Shown here piece after piece: positions 1,854 through 20,330 of a stretch of DNA of 21,309 nucleotides. A model generated the notes under the pieces. The model searched no databases. It was not told the DNA's origin and saw only the letters and a program-made list of their open reading frames with translations. The stretch covers positions 1-21,309 of IMG/VR virus record IMGVR_UViG_3300030107_005390. The stretch is one strand, 5' to 3'. This DNA is from a virus. The first letter of the stretch is position 1; every line of letters begins with the position of its first letter. Both the position numbers and the translations under genes were made by a program.

Positions 1854-2312
1854 ATGACATATAAATACACAGCACCAGAGTCCGTGATGAATGGAACTAA
1901 AACCACAGCGACAGCGGACGACACAGGAGTCGTAATCAACACAGGATTCGACACACTAACAGTACCTTGGGCAAACATGCAAATTTGGAAGTTTGACGGT
2001 AAAGACGGTACTGGAATGCACCCAATCACCGTGTACAACGGACAAATGCAATACTGTGTCGCATACAGCAGTGGTGACATTCAAGGCACCAACATTCGCC
2101 TCTTCGGTGGACGTAAAATCAAATTCATGATGAACGTCGAAAGAGAACTGTTCGTCGCTATTGCTGAAAATCTCGGTAAAGGCGATTTGGTAACACAATG
2201 GGAAGCCGAAGCCGTTCGCAATGGCGATAAAACAGCCAAAGTTGATGCATCTGCAGTGAAAGCAACGCTCAACAAAGCGAACACCGAAGACACCGAAGAA
2301 CCACCATTCTAA
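1854..2312 (+). CDS. Hypothetical protein with SSB-like acidic C-terminal tail, 152 aa
   Basis: The start at 1854 is chosen because AAAGGAGAT sits 8 bases upstream; a longer in-frame extension to 1725 would run through a hairpin and has no ribosome site. The body is predicted to be beta-rich (VVINTGF, TLTVPW, HPITVYNG, NIRLFGGRKIKFMM). The last residues DTEEPPF form an acidic tail ending in Pro-Pro-Phe, resembling the DDDIPF-type tip of bacterial and phage single-stranded DNA-binding proteins, which docks partner proteins. That suggests a divergent SSB, in keeping with the neighbouring primase-helicase, but no OB-fold motif can be proved by eye. Third codon positions are richer in C than in the genes that follow, which could mean high expression or a different origin. 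Confidence 0.7.
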   Translation: MTYKYTAPESVMNGTKTTATADDTGVVINTGFDTLTVPWANMQIWKFDGKDGTGMHPITVYNGQMQYCVAYSSGDIQGTNIRLFGGRKIKFMMNVERELFVAIAENLGKGDLVTQWEAEAVRNGDKTAKVDASAVKATLNKANTEDTEEPPF

Positions 2313-2852: not shown

Positions 2853-3215
2853 ATGTCACGGAAAGATGAACCAAGAACATTTCATACTAAGAAAGGTAAG
2901 AAAGTTAGTACTAACTTGAACCAACACAGTGAGACGTTCAAAAGGAATCTAGGGATTCTAGAAACTAAATTACCTCATTATGGAACAGACTCACCACGAG
3001 TATCCATAAATGACTTCCAAAAACTATGGACAGGCATAAATGACATATTAAATGAGTTAATGATATTAAATGATTTAGATGTAATGTATAACCCATCATT
3101 AATGCTCATGACAATAAGACATAAATCATTAATATTCAAATTAGTAGAAGATGAGTTGTGCGAATTAGAATACGCAGAGCACTTAGAACGTGAGGCAATG
3201 GAAAGCCAAGCATAA
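2853..3215 (+). CDS. Hypothetical protein, 120 aa
   Basis: Unrecognised. The N-terminal 35 residues are basic and Ser/Thr/Lys-rich (KKGKKVSTNLNQ), and the rest is predicted alpha-helical with a strongly acidic end (EDELCELEYAEHLEREAMES). There is no membrane segment. The start is backed by AAGGAGAT. The gene is followed by a strong terminator and preceded by a structured spacer, so it is probably its own transcription unit. An early, host-directed protein is plausible but unproven. Confidence 0.7.
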   Translation: MSRKDEPRTFHTKKGKKVSTNLNQHSETFKRNLGILETKLPHYGTDSPRVSINDFQKLWTGINDILNELMILNDLDVMYNPSLMLMTIRHKSLIFKLVEDELCELEYAEHLEREAMESQA

Positions 3216-3255
3216 TAGACAGTTAATGGTAGTCTATAAAATTCAACCATTCGAG

Positions 3256-3282
3256 TAGTTGGCGTAACCAACTATTTTTTTT
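3256..3282 (+). terminator. Intrinsic terminator
   Basis: TAGTTGG (3256-3262) pairs with CCAACTA (3268-3274) around a CGTAA loop, followed by eight T (3275-3282). A further stem, ATAGAC/GTCTAT, lies just upstream near 3218-3238. The GGCGTAACC loop-closing sequence recurs in the hairpin at 16197-16213. Confidence 0.88.
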
Positions 3283-3808: not shown

Positions 3809-3938
3809 AGGGTTATCCCTGAACGACCTGAACATGTCGTAAAACTGTTCTCTTTAAAGGAGAGCATGAGTACCAGAATTTGAATGAATGAATGTTCGTG
3901 TCGACATCACCGCTCGTCCTTGCGGGAGCGGTGAGTCG
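3809..3938 (+). other. Structured spacer with a strong GC-rich hairpin and repeat copy 2
   Basis: The 170-base gap holds AGGG/CCCT (3809-3820), ACGAC/GTCGT (3823-3840), CTCT/AGAG near 3850-3864, the repeat CATGAGTACCAGAATTTG (3865-3882), a GAATGAATGAATG triple repeat, and a strong hairpin. In that hairpin CGAC plus TCACCGCTC (3902-3915, one bulged A) pairs with GAGCGGTGA plus GTCG (3926-3938), 13 base pairs in all. No T-run follows, so this is not a standard terminator. Its G+C stands out in an AT-rich region, which suggests selection for RNA structure. Confidence 0.5.
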
Positions 3939-5037: not shown

Positions 5038-5844
5038 ATGACATACAAAACACATGGAGCCACAGAAGAAGTAAATTACGAACAATTGACAAGCTTATAT
5101 GTACCTGAGCAAACAAGAACTCATGTACCAATACCTCATCATAAACTATGGGATATACTAGAAGAAAAGCTATCTTACATGGGACATGAAACAAGAGCAA
5201 CAGAGTTTCTAGTGTCTAAAGACGGACAAAAGTTTGTTGGTAAATTTAAATTGCATGGTGAAGATAACGCAAGCGGTGAAGATGGAAGTGAATACGCCTA
5301 TCAAGGTGCAATATTCAATAGCCACGATAAAACACTGCCTGTAGCAGTAACTGAAGGCACCCACACATTTGTGTGCAGTAATGGACTATACATTGCAAAC
5401 TTTGTAGTTTCAAACAAACACACAAAAAATATTTGGGATACCGTACATAAAGAACTAAAGAACTTTGTGTGGGATTTAGCAAACAGAAGAAATAAAATGT
5501 TTAACTGGATAGAACAAACAAGAAACTTTGATTATTCTTCTGACAAAGAAGTACATGATTGTCTAATTAGAGAAATGAAAGCAGGGATTATTAACCCAAC
5601 AGACATTAAACCAATATTAGAACACTGGGAAAACCCAGAACATGAAGAGTTCAAAGATAGAAATGGGTACAGTCTAATCAATGCACACACGTCACATTGG
5701 AGAGCACATAACCCATTCACTCTACCATCAAAATCAATTAAATTGAGGAGATTTATTAATGACTACCAAAATAACTCTGGAACAGATAGAAATGGACATG
5801 AAGAAACTGGAGCAATACAGATCAGAACTCCTGACTTCGCTTGA
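5038..5844 (+). CDS. DUF932-like phage protein, 268 aa
   Basis: The central part (FNSHDKTLPVAVTEG, then HTFVCSNGLYIANF, residues about 93-122) resembles the DUF932/phage-plasmid-like family, in which an NSHDGS-type strand is followed by an xFVCxNGL motif. The function of that family is unknown; it is frequent on phages and plasmids. A helical region (KELKNFVWDLANRRNKMFNWIEQ) follows. The final 29 codons overlap the next gene in another frame and look less constrained. The start is ATG 5038, with AAGGAG 7-12 bases upstream overlapping the stop region of the previous gene. Family assignment is moderate. Confidence 0.65.
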   Translation: MTYKTHGATEEVNYEQLTSLYVPEQTRTHVPIPHHKLWDILEEKLSYMGHETRATEFLVSKDGQKFVGKFKLHGEDNASGEDGSEYAYQGAIFNSHDKTLPVAVTEGTHTFVCSNGLYIANFVVSNKHTKNIWDTVHKELKNFVWDLANRRNKMFNWIEQTRNFDYSSDKEVHDCLIREMKAGIINPTDIKPILEHWENPEHEEFKDRNGYSLINAHTSHWRAHNPFTLPSKSIKLRRFINDYQNNSGTDRNGHEETGAIQIRTPDFA

Positions 5845-5971
5845 TAAAATTACTACTGATATAGCCTTACTTTCAGAAGAAAGAGGAAGGCTGCTAAGGC
5901 AACTACACGATGTCAACCGAGAAACTGTTGAAAAACAGGTAGAGGGTGACAAGATTTTAAGAAAGACATAA
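5759..5971 (+). CDS. Small coiled-coil protein, 70 aa
   Basis: TGAGGAGAT precedes the ATG with good spacing. Heptad-like leucine and isoleucine spacing runs through most of the protein (LEQIEMDMKKLEQYRSELL, then ALLSEERGRLLRQL), so a coiled coil is likely. No membrane segment. The gene starts 86 bases inside the preceding gene in a different frame, an unusually long overlap. It is followed by the strong terminator at 5990-6024. Function unknown; it resembles in style the coiled-coil protein at 7618-7902. Confidence 0.72.
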   Translation: MTTKITLEQIEMDMKKLEQYRSELLTSLDKITTDIALLSEERGRLLRQLHDVNRETVEKQVEGDKILRKT

Positions 5972-5981
5972 AAATCGGGGG

Positions 5982-6152
5982 TTATTCAGAGTCAGATTTC
6001 TTAACGGAAGTCTGACTTTTTTTTAGTGGAAACATGGAATTTAATTTCTTCCGTCTTTCCTCACATTTACTGCAGGTAGGGATATTTACCTTATCTGTAA
6101 GTCTCTTGATAATATCTCCGAGACCTTCAATTTTTTGTTTGTCACTATTCAA
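5982..6152 (-). CDS. Small basic CxxC protein of the phage GLGD...C..C..RRKKLN type, 56 aa
   Basis: This minus-strand gene starts at TTG (6152-6150) with AGGAG at 6165-6161, spacing 8, and stops at TAA (5984-5982). The protein reads GLGDIIKRLTDKVNIPTCS then KCEERRKKLN. From memory, a Gly-Leu-Gly-Asp start, an amphipathic helix, a C-x2-C knuckle and an Arg/Lys/Leu/Asn ending recur in small proteins of environmental phages; their function is unknown to me. The last 14 codons coincide with the intrinsic terminator that serves the plus-strand operon. It is the only minus-strand gene seen left of 20 kb. A plus-strand open frame through the same bases (from 6034) looks like its shadow. Confidence 0.72.
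   Translation of the reverse strand: MNSDKQKIEGLGDIIKRLTDKVNIPTCSKCEERRKKLNSMFPLKKSQTSVKKSDSE
5990..6024 (+). terminator. Strong intrinsic terminator, embedded in the 3' end of the minus-strand gene
   Basis: AGTCAGATTTC (5990-6000) pairs with GAAGTCTGACT (6007-6017), one G-U pair, loop TTAACG, followed by eight T ending at 6024. It closes the operon ending at 5971. On the other strand the same bases encode a Lys-Lys-Ser and Ser/Thr-rich tail. Confidence 0.9.
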
Positions 6153-15391: not shown

Positions 15392-15916
15392 ATGAGCATC
15401 TCAAACGAAACGAAGGCAATCTTCTCAAACTTGCAAGCCGATTTCGAAACAGCAAACGCAGACCAAGGTATGGGTTCACTAGGTGAATGGCCAACTAAAG
15501 GTGAACACGCTTGTTATGTACTCGGTATGAATGTGCAAAGCGGTACTTTCCGTCAATCAAGTGATAGACAAGAGTTCCCTGCAATCAGTGTACAATTCCA
15601 CTATCAACTCTGTGAAGATCCAGATCGAGCAGAACCACTAGTATGGAATGGTGCCCCAATGACTATCCCCCATGACCCATCACAATTGAGTCATGAAGGA
15701 TCACAGATTCGTGCTAAGATTGAACTCAGCCGTCTCAAAGGTCACCTTAAAACTATTCTCGGATATGACCCTACTGATCTAGGTGCAGCATTCGAAGAAG
15801 TAGAAAATAAACTTAATGGTGATTCAACTGTTGCATGCATGGTTCGATGTCAGTATACTGAACGAGGCACATCCACTTACAAATCAGAGTATCTTCAAAC
15901 ACTCTTAGGTGGCTAA
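15392..15916 (+). CDS. Probable ssDNA-binding partner of the Sak4-like protein (DUF669-like), 174 aa
   Basis: Starts 8 bases after the ATPase gene. The sequence is beta-rich with alternating strands (GEHACYVLGMNVQSGTF, EFPAISVQFHYQLC, STVACMVRCQYT), compatible with an OB fold, and resembles DUF669-type phage proteins that lie beside Sak4-like ATPases and act as single-stranded DNA-binding proteins. It lacks an acidic tail of the SSB type (ends SEYLQTLLGG). Codons are more C-rich at third positions than those of neighbours, a sign of high expression. Function is mainly from context; the DUF assignment is uncertain. Confidence 0.6.
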   Translation: MSISNETKAIFSNLQADFETANADQGMGSLGEWPTKGEHACYVLGMNVQSGTFRQSSDRQEFPAISVQFHYQLCEDPDRAEPLVWNGAPMTIPHDPSQLSHEGSQIRAKIELSRLKGHLKTILGYDPTDLGAAFEEVENKLNGDSTVACMVRCQYTERGTSTYKSEYLQTLLGG

Positions 15917-16453
15917 TTAATTTGAACCCCCACTCTTAGGGCTCCCCGATCCTTCCCGGTGACGGGAGCCCCATTTAGTAGGTACCTTATATAGCAGTGT
16001 TGGAACGACGTTGTTGGATCCAATAGGGTATCTACTAATTGATTGAGTGCGTCCGGTAAAGCAGGATAAAATATAAAGCACACCTGCTTCAATCAATGAC
16101 AGGGTTGCACCCGCCTTGTATAAAAGAAACGTTCGTTGGTGCACCGATCGGAAACTCAGTAATGATACTTTTGGTGAGTATAAACAGTATCCGAGTGATG
16201 GGCGTAACCCATCTACAATCTATGGGGGTGTAACACGACCCGAGTGTCCTTGAGGCAATGAACGGTACATAAGACCTATACCAGGAGTACCCTGTTACAC
16301 CTCCACAATCTAATGTGCGGAGCCACGGCTAGACGGGCTTTAATGAGATAATCTTGGCATCTCTAACGCACACAATATACCTACCTGTCCCTCTTGTTGA
16401 GGGGCAACGTGCAGGGGGTGGTGTTATCTCCTTTTAATGCCACCCCCTATTTT
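15917..16453 (+). ncRNA. Densely structured noncoding region; candidate large phage RNA
   Basis: About 530 bases without a credible gene in a window where genes otherwise touch. Stems seen by eye, in order: GGGCTCCC 15939/GGGAGCCC 15964; TTAGTAGGTACC 15975/GGTATCTACTAA 16027 (one G-U); ATTGATTGA 16038/TCAATCAAT 16089, enclosing AGCAGG 16060/CCTGCT 16083, with GTGC 16047 able to pair with GCAC 16078 as a pseudoknot; GG(T)TGCACC 16103/GGTGCACC 16138; ATACT 16165/AGTAT 16177; GATGGG 16197/CCCATC 16208; GGGGGTGTAACA 16224/TGTTACACCTCC 16293 (12 pairs, one G-U), enclosing GGTAC 16264/GTACC 16287; TGTGCG 16314/CGCACA 16367, enclosing GAGAT 16345/ATCTC 16359; GTCCCTC 16387/GAGGGGC 16399; and a terminator-like stem at 16413. 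There is no tRNA pattern. Size and style recall ornate phage RNAs such as GOLLD and ROOL, but no homology is claimed. The first stem might instead only terminate the upstream operon. Strand assumed to be +. Confidence 0.55.
16413..16453 (+). terminator. Terminator-like hairpin with an anti-Shine-Dalgarno loop
   Basis: AGGGGGTGGTGTT (16413-16425) pairs with AATGCCACCCCCT (16436-16448), 13 pairs with two wobbles, followed by ATTTTG. The ten-base loop ATCTCCTTTT is the exact complement of AAAAGGAGAT, the ribosome-binding type used by many genes here. The ATG at 16437 is inside the 3' arm and is not a likely start. Confidence 0.6.
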
Positions 16454-16469
16454 GTATGATGGAGGAACT

Positions 16470-17651
16470 ATGAGATATCAAGCAACAAAAATAATGATCG
16501 AAGCCTTAAAAGGTTTAGATACTTCAATACCTGCACAAAGAGCTAGAGCCCTAGCTGCAATGCAATTCGAACCTAAATTGTTATATACAGCAGGTACAAA
16601 CTTAAAAGGAATTCATGGTGCAGGGGGTGCAAAGTTTGCAAGGGAAGAGTTTGGTTTACCTATTGGAAAGTTTGAAGGAATACACGGTAGAACTATTGGT
16701 GTTCCAACGAGAACAGGTCCACCTATAACTACACTAGGTGAGAATGAATTAAGAGGTTCATTACTAAACTTTAGAGAAACACTAGAAGCACATCCAGGAG
16801 CTTTAGCTTTACTGCCTCGAATAGGAATGGGTAAAGCGGGGGTACCTAAAGATAGAATGTTAGGTTTAATGGATGAAACAGGTTTGTTTAAAATGGGTGA
16901 ACAAATAGTTCCTACATCAGAAATGGTGTTAGCAGGATTCCCTGAAACTGCAGCGAGAATGAGATTGTTAGAACGGATGAGGAAACTGACTCCTTTTAAG
17001 AAAGCATTTGCCGAAGAAAATGAAAAGAACATTGGAGCAAATATTGTTGCTATGATTAAAGGGAAAATAGAAATACCAGAAAATCTTAAAGCAGAAGGTG
17101 TTCCGTTTCAAACCTACTTAATAAATACGGTAAAAAATATAACCGATGACTTTAAAATAATTTCCGGGGGTCAAATAGGATCTGATGAAATAGGTTTAAG
17201 AATAGGTAAATCATTAGGAATTCCTACAGGTGGAACAGCCCCACCTAAATTCTTAACAGCGAAAGGTTCAAACTATAAACTAAGAGATGAATATGGACTA
17301 GAAGAATTAGTTCGTGGAACAGGGATCGATAGATCTAGAGGGGGACATATGCAATCATTAGATTATAGAGAGAGGACAATACTAAATATTGCTAATTCAG
17401 ATGGCACTATAGTAGTTGCTAATAACTGGAAAAGTCCAGGGTCATTACTTACTCTTAAAGAAGCAAGAAGAGAAGGACATGGACTATTAAAAAGTACAGA
17501 TATAAAAAGCAAAGACGACGTTATAAACTGGATTATTAATAATGAAATAAGCACAATTAACATTGCAGGTAATCGTAATGTAAGCGATAGACATCCTGCA
17601 TTCAAACACATCTATGAAGCCTTAAAGGAGCTCAAAGAAATAGGAGGTTAA
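16470..17651 (+). CDS. Fusion of an A1S_2505-like domain and a YpsA-like SLOG domain, 393 aa
   Basis: Start at ATG 16470, after GGAGGAA; the in-frame ATG at 16437 lies in a hairpin. N-terminal domain: AGTNLKGIHGAGGAKFAREEFG then EGIHGRTIGVPTR (about residues 40-81), matching the motif pattern of phage proteins named A1S_2505-like (GSNLAGxHGxGAA...G.G..GQSYA.PTK). C-terminal domain: IISGGQIGSD (231-240), GIPTGGTAPP, then RERTILNIANSDGTIVV and SPGSLLTLKEARREG, the order seen in circularly permuted YpsA SLOG or molybdenum-carrier-like proteins. SLOG domains bind nucleotides and NAD-related ligands and occur in nucleotide-signal systems including some antiphage defence proteins. I infer a nucleotide- or NAD-metabolite-binding protein, possibly an anti-defence factor; enzymatic activity is unknown. 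It is the first gene after the structured region. Confidence 0.7.
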   Translation: MRYQATKIMIEALKGLDTSIPAQRARALAAMQFEPKLLYTAGTNLKGIHGAGGAKFAREEFGLPIGKFEGIHGRTIGVPTRTGPPITTLGENELRGSLLNFRETLEAHPGALALLPRIGMGKAGVPKDRMLGLMDETGLFKMGEQIVPTSEMVLAGFPETAARMRLLERMRKLTPFKKAFAEENEKNIGANIVAMIKGKIEIPENLKAEGVPFQTYLINTVKNITDDFKIISGGQIGSDEIGLRIGKSLGIPTGGTAPPKFLTAKGSNYKLRDEYGLEELVRGTGIDRSRGGHMQSLDYRERTILNIANSDGTIVVANNWKSPGSLLTLKEARREGHGLLKSTDIKSKDDVINWIINNEISTINIAGNRNVSDRHPAFKHIYEALKELKEIGG

Positions 17652-19561: not shown

Positions 19562-20048
19562 GTTCAGAGAGTTTCCTGTTTTTCCTATGGTCACTTACGA
19601 CCAGAAATTCGACTCTCCAATAAATGCTAAGTGGAAAATAATTACATATGTTCCACCCCACCAGAAATTGGTAGGGTCTAAAACAAAAGAAAGCAAGATG
19701 TTCCTCGTCAATGATGAGTGGGGGGTTATAGTGTGGCTCAAGACAGACGAAAGGCTCGGCAGAGAAGGAGCCGAGATATCCCTTTACGAAGCATCTAAGG
19801 GTAAGATGCCACTGAAGTACCACGAAATCGGCAAAGCTCGTACACGGGCTCTGAGAGGCTCTCAGGGGGTGTCACTAATAGAGACTAAAGTGGACGTAGA
19901 TATGGTAAAAAGACAAAGGTATTCAGGGGCTATCGTAGAGCGAGAGCAATCCATACAGATATGGCTACGGCTGTCTGGACCGGAGGACCAAGGATCACCC
20001 ACAACCGATGCCACAGCATCAGCGTCTTCTTCTAACAGGAACAAGTAA
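19548..20048 (+). CDS. Hypothetical protein with disordered C-terminal tail, 166 aa
   Basis: Starts at ATG 19548 without a clear ribosome site. The body has a beta-rich start (FREFPVFPMVTYDQKFDS; WKIITYVPPHQKLVG) and a Lys/Arg-rich middle, and the end is Ser/Thr/Ala/Asp-rich and probably disordered (TTDATASASSSNRNK). It is less AT-rich than its neighbours, perhaps a later acquisition. It contains an AGTGGGGG copy. Its 3' end overlaps the minus-strand gene at 20019 by 30 bases, so the two transcripts converge. No family recognised. Confidence 0.6.
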   Translation: MSNIKFREFPVFPMVTYDQKFDSPINAKWKIITYVPPHQKLVGSKTKESKMFLVNDEWGVIVWLKTDERLGREGAEISLYEASKGKMPLKYHEIGKARTRALRGSQGVSLIETKVDVDMVKRQRYSGAIVEREQSIQIWLRLSGPEDQGSPTTDATASASSSNRNK

Positions 20049-20330
20049 AGGCAAAGCAAAAACCGCAAGAGTCCCCGGAGCCGGAAGAACCGAGACACCG
20101 GCAGAGCCGTCAATCGCTTGCTTAACTTTGTCGTAGGTCTGGAAATACTCTACGATTTTATCAACAGCCTCTTTGCCAAGTACAGTGCCACCAATAGCAA
20201 TAGCGATAGTTGTAACCATGAGCCTTCTCTTGAGAAGATTAATCTCGTCAGTCTTTCGCTTGCTACTTTCCTTACATTTTTTAAGGTCAGTTTCTGCATT
20301 CTTCTTATGACAATCGCAATTGCAATTCAT
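20019..20330 (-). CDS. Two-span membrane protein with PEP-CTERM-like tail, 103 aa
   Basis: The N-terminus is Cys/His-rich (MNCNCDCHKK) and then very basic. A first membrane segment lies at about 37-52 (MVTTIAIAIGGTVLG), an extracytoplasmic loop at 53-79, then PAPGTLAVFALPLL and a final RRRR. This is the pattern of PEP/VPAP-CTERM tails: Pro-x-Pro, a hydrophobic helix and an Arg cluster. Both ends would be cytoplasmic and the loop outside. Exosortase sorting needs a host enzyme, so a phage bearing such a tail is notable; alternatively it is a two-span holin. It is last in the minus-strand operon, overlapping the previous gene by 4 bases, and its tail overlaps the plus-strand gene at 19548. Confidence 0.7.
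   Translation of the reverse strand: MNCNCDCHKKNAETDLKKCKESSKRKTDEINLLKRRLMVTTIAIAIGGTVLGKEAVDKIVEYFQTYDKVKQAIDGSAGVSVLPAPGTLAVFALPLLVPVRRRR

Follow-up and report, generated by a model that had tools for sequence, protein, structure and literature searches.

An array of structured RNA modules exchanged as a mosaic between related phages

Phage tRNA islands are runs of small structured RNAs whose members are gained and lost, and islands of accessory anti-defence genes show turnover at a fixed site. Compact H-type pseudoknot riboswitches, preQ1-I for example, are built of two crossing helices with A-rich loops. No described system known to us combines unlike RNA modules in an exchangeable array, and no counterpart was found in open-access papers. 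The large phage-encoded RNAs GOLLD (RF02032) and ROOL (RF03087), studied by cryo-EM (PMC12286853), are pseudoknot-rich and have no assigned function, each of them being a single family with its own conserved architecture. For GOLLD, as well as for OLE, switching between palindromes in loops has been used as an argument for intermolecular kissing (PMC12286853). Phage PhiTE escapes the ToxIN system through an expanded, recombining array of pseudo-ToxI pseudoknots (PMC3475682), which consists of near-identical 36-nt tandem repeats of one antitoxin and acts as a decoy for the host toxin.

The window, that is the whole analysed stretch of 21,309 nt (positions 1 to 21,309 of the IMG/VR record IMGVR_UViG_3300030107_005390), belongs to a 34.6-kb virus contig with plus-strand genes coding for primase, DNA polymerase A, a uracil-DNA glycosylase-like protein, an exonuclease and a Sak4-like protein, and with a minus-strand gene block beyond approximately 20 kb that probably contains the virion genes. 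A 103-aa protein encoded at 20019-20330 on the minus strand ends in VLPAPGTLAVFALPLLVPVRRRR, which resembles a PEP-CTERM sorting tail, a tail type common in Planctomycetota and thus a possible hint at the host. PADLOC gave no match in the five proteins scanned.

The first-pass annotation described 15917-16453 as a large, densely folded noncoding region, and this description proved right with regard to the folding energy, the compensatory changes seen in homologs and the lack of a conserved ORF. The plus strand folds with -185.8 kcal/mol against -153.9 ± 6.1 kcal/mol for shuffled sequences (z = -5.2, reached by 0 of 100 shuffles) and the minus strand folds less well (z = -2.3). The baseline for the same genome, 21 pieces of 520 nt, has a mean z of -1.7 with a standard deviation of 1.5, and one other piece reaches -5.35. 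The plus strands of the related arrays all lie below their shuffle means, with z from -0.2 to -5.9 and mostly below -2. Elsewhere in the window, the intergenic gap at 5840-6040 folds with z = -5.8, and in it a strong terminator-like hairpin, AGUCAGAUUUC..GGAAGUCUGACU, precedes U8. No ORF is conserved between the arrays; translated matches are short, are spread over several frames and end at module edges, on which ground a coding region was rejected.

The stems reported earlier are real, and four of them (I1, I3, I5 and I7) are listed in Table 1 together with the modules into which the region is divided.

Table 1 Features of the array and its neighbouring genes in window coordinates
Feature	Position	Strand	Description
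Upstream neighbour	stop at 15916		Conserved 174-aa gene, function unassigned
H0, leading hairpin	15939..15971	+	GGGCUCCC...GGGAGCCC, 3' of stop codon
Stem I7	15939-15946/15964-15971		8 nt, perfect
Stem I1	15972-15990/16023-16041		
M1	15975..16038	+	12-bp scaffold stem UUAGUAGGUACC/GGUAUCUACUAA with hypervariable insert inside
M2 (P type)	16038..16097	+	Closing stem AUUGAUUGA/UCAAUCAAU enclosing a pseudoknot
Stem I5	16038-16046/16089-16097		9 nt, perfect
M3	16099..16151	+	Pseudoknot-capable element, 3' end is the palindrome CCGAUCGG (16144-16151)
X	16154..16213	+	Pseudoknot ACUC-aguaau-GAUAC-uuuuggu-GAGU-auaaaca-GUAUC, then hairpin GAUGGGCGUAACCCAUC (16197-16213)
Linker	16215..16222	+	ACAAUCUA
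Stem I3	16223-16235/16293-16305		13 nt, 92%
M4 (V type)	16224..16304	+	12-13-bp closing stem GGGGGUGUAACA/UGUUACACCUCC
Linker	16305..16312	+	ACAAUCUA
S module	16315..16371	+	Closing stem GUGCG/CGCAC; hairpins AGCC/GGCU and GAGAU/AUCUC with complementary loops
Linker variant	16372..16379	+	ACAAUAUA
Small hairpin	16389..16403	+	CCCUCUUGUUGAGGG
Terminal terminator-like hairpin	16413..16448	+	Loop AUCUCCUUUU, followed by AUUUU
Downstream neighbour	16437-17651		cpYpsA (SLOG) gene, phrog_2072 N-terminal part, start near 16470

H0 is almost unchanged among the relatives with the same upstream gene, its inner CC/GG being replaced by UC/GA. The insert of M1, which in the window holds UUGGAUCCAA at 16014-16023, is swapped for unrelated hairpins in relatives and for a pseudoknot of another type, W, in L013. 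The M2 pseudoknot reads GUGC-guccgguaa-AGCAGG-auaaaauauaaa-GCAC-a-CCUGCU and its homolog in L092 has ACUAGU in loop 1. The terminal 8-mer palindrome of M3 becomes CCGUACGG in L004 and L012, X is the module with the widest distribution, and the S module occurs in more than one gene context. The interior of M4 contains a possible pseudoknot, UCCU-GGUAC-AGGA-GUACC (p = 0.12 when taken alone), and its second helix becomes GAGAG/CUCUC in L014.

The pseudoknots that had been suggested for the region are present and supported by homologs. The closing terminator-like hairpin was likewise found, although its U run is short, and terminator-like hits in the region show as a number no excess above chance. 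The last hairpins of the arrays, at 16414-16447 in the window and at the array ends of L007 and L013, expose CUCC-rich loops (AUCUCCUUUU, GGCUCCUCCUGCC and GGCGCCUCCUGCC), which could pair with the Shine-Dalgarno sequence of the next gene. In the window the cpYpsA gene separates the array from the next conserved gene; its N-terminal part stands at this place in L010-like contigs, and the gene is missing in others.

The covariation expected of a structured RNA was strong in homologs, as seen in the X hairpin and the P closing stem. In the X hairpin 72 of 72 cells are paired and both sides have changed in four of the six pairs, with a covariation of 0.475 against 0.256 ± 0.042, a value found in 0 of 500 shuffles. 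The P closing stem is 93.4% paired with six of its 12 pairs changed on both sides, its score was found in 0 of 500 shuffles and its covariation lies far over that of slid controls, so that in these two helices compensatory change exceeds both controls. All 41 closing pairs of the S module are kept across five different strand pairs. Models trained on 14 P modules and 12 X hairpins find members outside the training set, all within arrays except for one solitary X. The P-model matches are confined to arrays, include untrained modules of L014, L079, L077, L054 and L052, and cover the window M2 at 16038-16095 on the plus strand with an E value of 0.07.

Many modules consist of a closing stem enclosing a pseudoknot, and types P, W and V have in common the order H1, loop 1, S2, A-rich loop, H1', 0 to 2 nt, S2'. 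Two crossing helices and A-rich loops are also typical of preQ1-I-type riboswitches, but each of these stands alone ahead of the gene that it regulates, whereas the modules are strung in arrays and have no Rfam match. An automated search detected pseudoknot helices in 14 of 22 modules, approximately ten of them with a shuffle p ≤ 0.05; in a set segmented partly by hand there are 18 different H1 and 16 different S2 5' strands, every one of which is paired. These module counts are not independent, as the modules share ancestry.

Read as plus-strand RNA, the hand-listed closing helices have 14 G-U pairs and not a single A-C pair, which points to RNA made from the gene strand. It could be imagined that the region acts at the DNA level, as hairpin cassettes for site-specific recombination resembling integron attC sites, or in replication or packaging, given the cassette-like modules with a short repeated linker between them. 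The G-U pairs are, however, what is expected of RNA derived from a single strand, attC sites functioning as DNA with no strand-specific G-U pairs, and sub-domains are grafted within stems with exchange not limited to linkers, so that we regard a DNA element as scarcely credible.

When IMG/VR was searched with neighbouring genes and module cores as queries, approximately 25 other distinct arrays came to light, in no fewer than three gene contexts. An array of context I lies 3' of the 174-aa gene; one of context II has a DUF932 gene on its 5' side and, on its 3' side, a small gene and a gene for a T7-like RNA polymerase, with a TTGACA/TATAAT-like promoter 3' of the array in some phages; L096 represents a third context and L052 is different again. 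There is one array in each genome searched, its place 3' of a stop codon being fixed, and in 11 contigs searched over the whole record modules occur at one site each, except for the weak solitary X in the window genome. In L015 and L016 the neighbouring genes are 77% similar, yet the array is absent and a short hairpin stretch stands in its place, which means that the array is dispensable. BLASTN against deposited phages gave no array match; only a short stretch at the 3' edge of the array was matched, and this by a single Synechococcus phage. Nine matches to the core of the G module in a scan of bacterial genomes were all rejected as chance matches in unrelated sequence.

About 22 module families were recognised by their conserved cores, most of them in at least two contexts, and 16 occur in more than one context with L052 counted apart. 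Relatives differ in their module sets, and for 19 of the 60 pairs of co-occurring families the order is contradictory. The linker ACAAUCUA, or a variant of it, connects several of the modules. Exchange also takes place below the module level, by grafting of apical sub-domains inside stems: the W pseudoknot has a GGGGUGGG/CCCACCCC stem of its own in L007, L010, L071 and others and sits inside the M1 scaffold in L013, the Y core CGUAUGGUUACUCAUAAGAACAACAGCA is flanked by differing scaffold stems in L042, L054, L073, L094 and L096, and the interior of M1 in L005 reappears in L073 carried by another stem. The plus-strand modules are observed to keep their pairing by compensatory change and to be exchanged as a mosaic between related phages, and modules and apical sub-domains alike are gained, lost, reordered and grafted at a fixed site.

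A single large RNA resembling GOLLD or ROOL, which had been proposed for the region, would have a global fold with variable peripheral helices. The stability of the fold across the whole array would agree with it, and the palindromic loops hint at multimers of the kind formed by GOLLD, ROOL and OLE. Neither RF02032 nor RF03087, however, gave a match in the full cmscan or in single-model searches, in which the controls (14 genomes for RF02032) were silent too. All members of GOLLD share a conserved 3' region, whereas the arrays have over 20 module families whose order changes, no common core, no common 3' module and no module present in all of them; we therefore rejected this proposal and consider it very unlikely. 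The alternative put forward with it, a cluster of smaller RNAs, turned out to be the correct one, in the form of an array of separate structured modules. Going beyond either, the comparison indicates that phages exchange the modules and alter their order and build, that the linkers recur and that pseudoknot loops switch between palindromes.

The region matches none of the 4,227 Rfam families searched, and at the gathering threshold of Rfam 15 no family gave a match in any of the arrays apart from a tmRNA in L057; a malK-I match (E 0.19) and other weak matches were attributed to chance. GOLLD and ROOL often adjoin tRNA islands, whereas no tRNA was found in the arrays. The likeness to tRNA islands lies in the gain and loss of small RNAs within a run, but ARAGORN found no tRNA, and a tRNA cluster was rejected for this reason. 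The sole tRNA-like member is an 82-nt tmRNA tRNA-like domain at the end of the L057 array (2221-2302, minus strand; RF00023, 51.8 bits against a gathering threshold of 47, E 2.6e-19), which has neither a tag reading frame nor a pseudoknot domain and may be a phage mini-tmRNA or a tmRNA mimic.

A perfect palindromic hexamer at a fixed position of loop 1 was found in 13 of 22 distinct loops (UGUACA, GUCGAC, ACUAGU, GAUAUC, GGUACC, GUGCAC, GCAUGC and GCUAGC), in the partly hand-made segmentation, and in 7 of 14 loops segmented automatically. Shuffled loops gave a mean of 2.3 and a maximum of 9, and 13 was reached in 0 of 20,000 trials. The L2 loops of the same modules have a palindromic hexamer in 2 of 20 cases, and a general enrichment was rejected as palindromes number 151 against 190 array-wide, with loop 1 alone being enriched. 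As a pattern, loop 1 is shown to switch from one perfect palindromic hexamer to another, and since the hexamer changes and does not pair with itself within the molecule while self-complementarity is kept, this points to pairing between two copies. The arrays may accordingly resemble GOLLD, ROOL and OLE in self-associating, GOLLD and OLE sharing with them the switching between palindromes (PMC12286853). Because M2 of the window keeps only CCGG (UCCGGU) with no perfect hexamer, and M4 has none, the case for self-kissing is weaker for the window than for the family.

Taken together, we lean towards regarding the region as an exchangeable island of trans-acting structured RNA modules, probably self-associating and perhaps serving as decoys. 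The array would be transcribed by read-through from the upstream gene, the modules would fold independently and might be cut apart at the linkers, and the RNAs would self-associate through kissing of palindromic loops on different copies. As a set the modules would then act in trans and most likely sequester host factors, for instance proteins of defence or RNA processing, in the manner of variable decoys or sponges, a role that would explain the turnover of modules. Decoys or sponges are a first guess which we hold to be rather doubtful, taken from a turnover like that of anti-defence islands and from the precedent of PhiTE (PMC3475682), whose pseudoknots are likewise noncoding, arranged in series and changed by recombination.

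That precedent, together with the A-rich-loop pseudoknots, the short linkers and the variation from phage to phage, would also fit a library of antitoxin mimics of the type III toxin-antitoxin class, each ToxI-like pseudoknot being directed against a different host ribonuclease toxin. PhiTE escaped ToxIN, however, by means of near-identical repeats, and no tandem repeats were found in the window at 15850-16500, the modules being unlike one another; closing stems of 8-13 bp are foreign to the 36-nt ToxI unit, there is no match to an Rfam antitoxin, and a protein ligand would not predict the palindrome constraint. Such a library thus seems distinctly unlikely. In a wider form of the exchangeable island, which we put forward tentatively as a fair possibility short of being probable, it would be a combinatorial RNA island with self-associating modules that have palindromic recognition loops of their own and are swapped like accessory genes, each phage assembling its own set against varying host factors.

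Phage islands with hypervariable sets of protein genes, often of the anti-defence kind, are known, and an island made entirely of exchangeable structured RNAs would be their RNA counterpart. If true, it would add approximately 20 RNA families in one step and supply small natural test cases of kissing-loop RNA self-assembly, of which the examples so far are a few large RNAs. It would also make testable the idea that RNA modules instead of proteins serve as the changing weapons or decoys of phages.

Cis-acting elements of a 3' UTR or intergenic region, with pseudoknots and hairpins that block exonucleases, terminate or attenuate transcription or adjust the dosage of neighbouring genes, are unlikely to account for the arrays but deserve more weight than the other alternatives. 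The arrays come after a stop codon and are flanked by co-directional genes, several are closed by terminator-like hairpins, and in some context-II phages a promoter-like sequence comes after them. Besides, the solitary relative of X at 3215-3282 of the window, after the stop codon of a gene ending at 3215, consists of the pseudoknot AGAC-aguu-AAUGGU-a-GUCU-auaaaauuca-ACCAUU, the hairpin GUUGGCGUAACCAAC and U8 and is terminator-like, which suggests a possible cis action for this solitary element at least. For such a purpose, however, one or two stable hairpins would be enough, as in L015, which gets by with a short hairpin stretch, and the existence of over 20 exchangeable families would be left unexplained, as would palindrome switching and the grafting of apical domains.

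A genome-wide excess of compact H-type pseudoknots was dismissed as weak (31 against 15-25 in shuffles). Two mini pseudoknots of similar build stand directly 3' of genes of the window, GAGAC-CU-GAGUA-A-GUCUU-AAAAC-UACUC at 2321-2348 and ACGAC-CU-GAACA-U-GUCGU-AAAAC-UGUUC at 3823-3850, and a core related to them is present in the arrays of L004 and L012.
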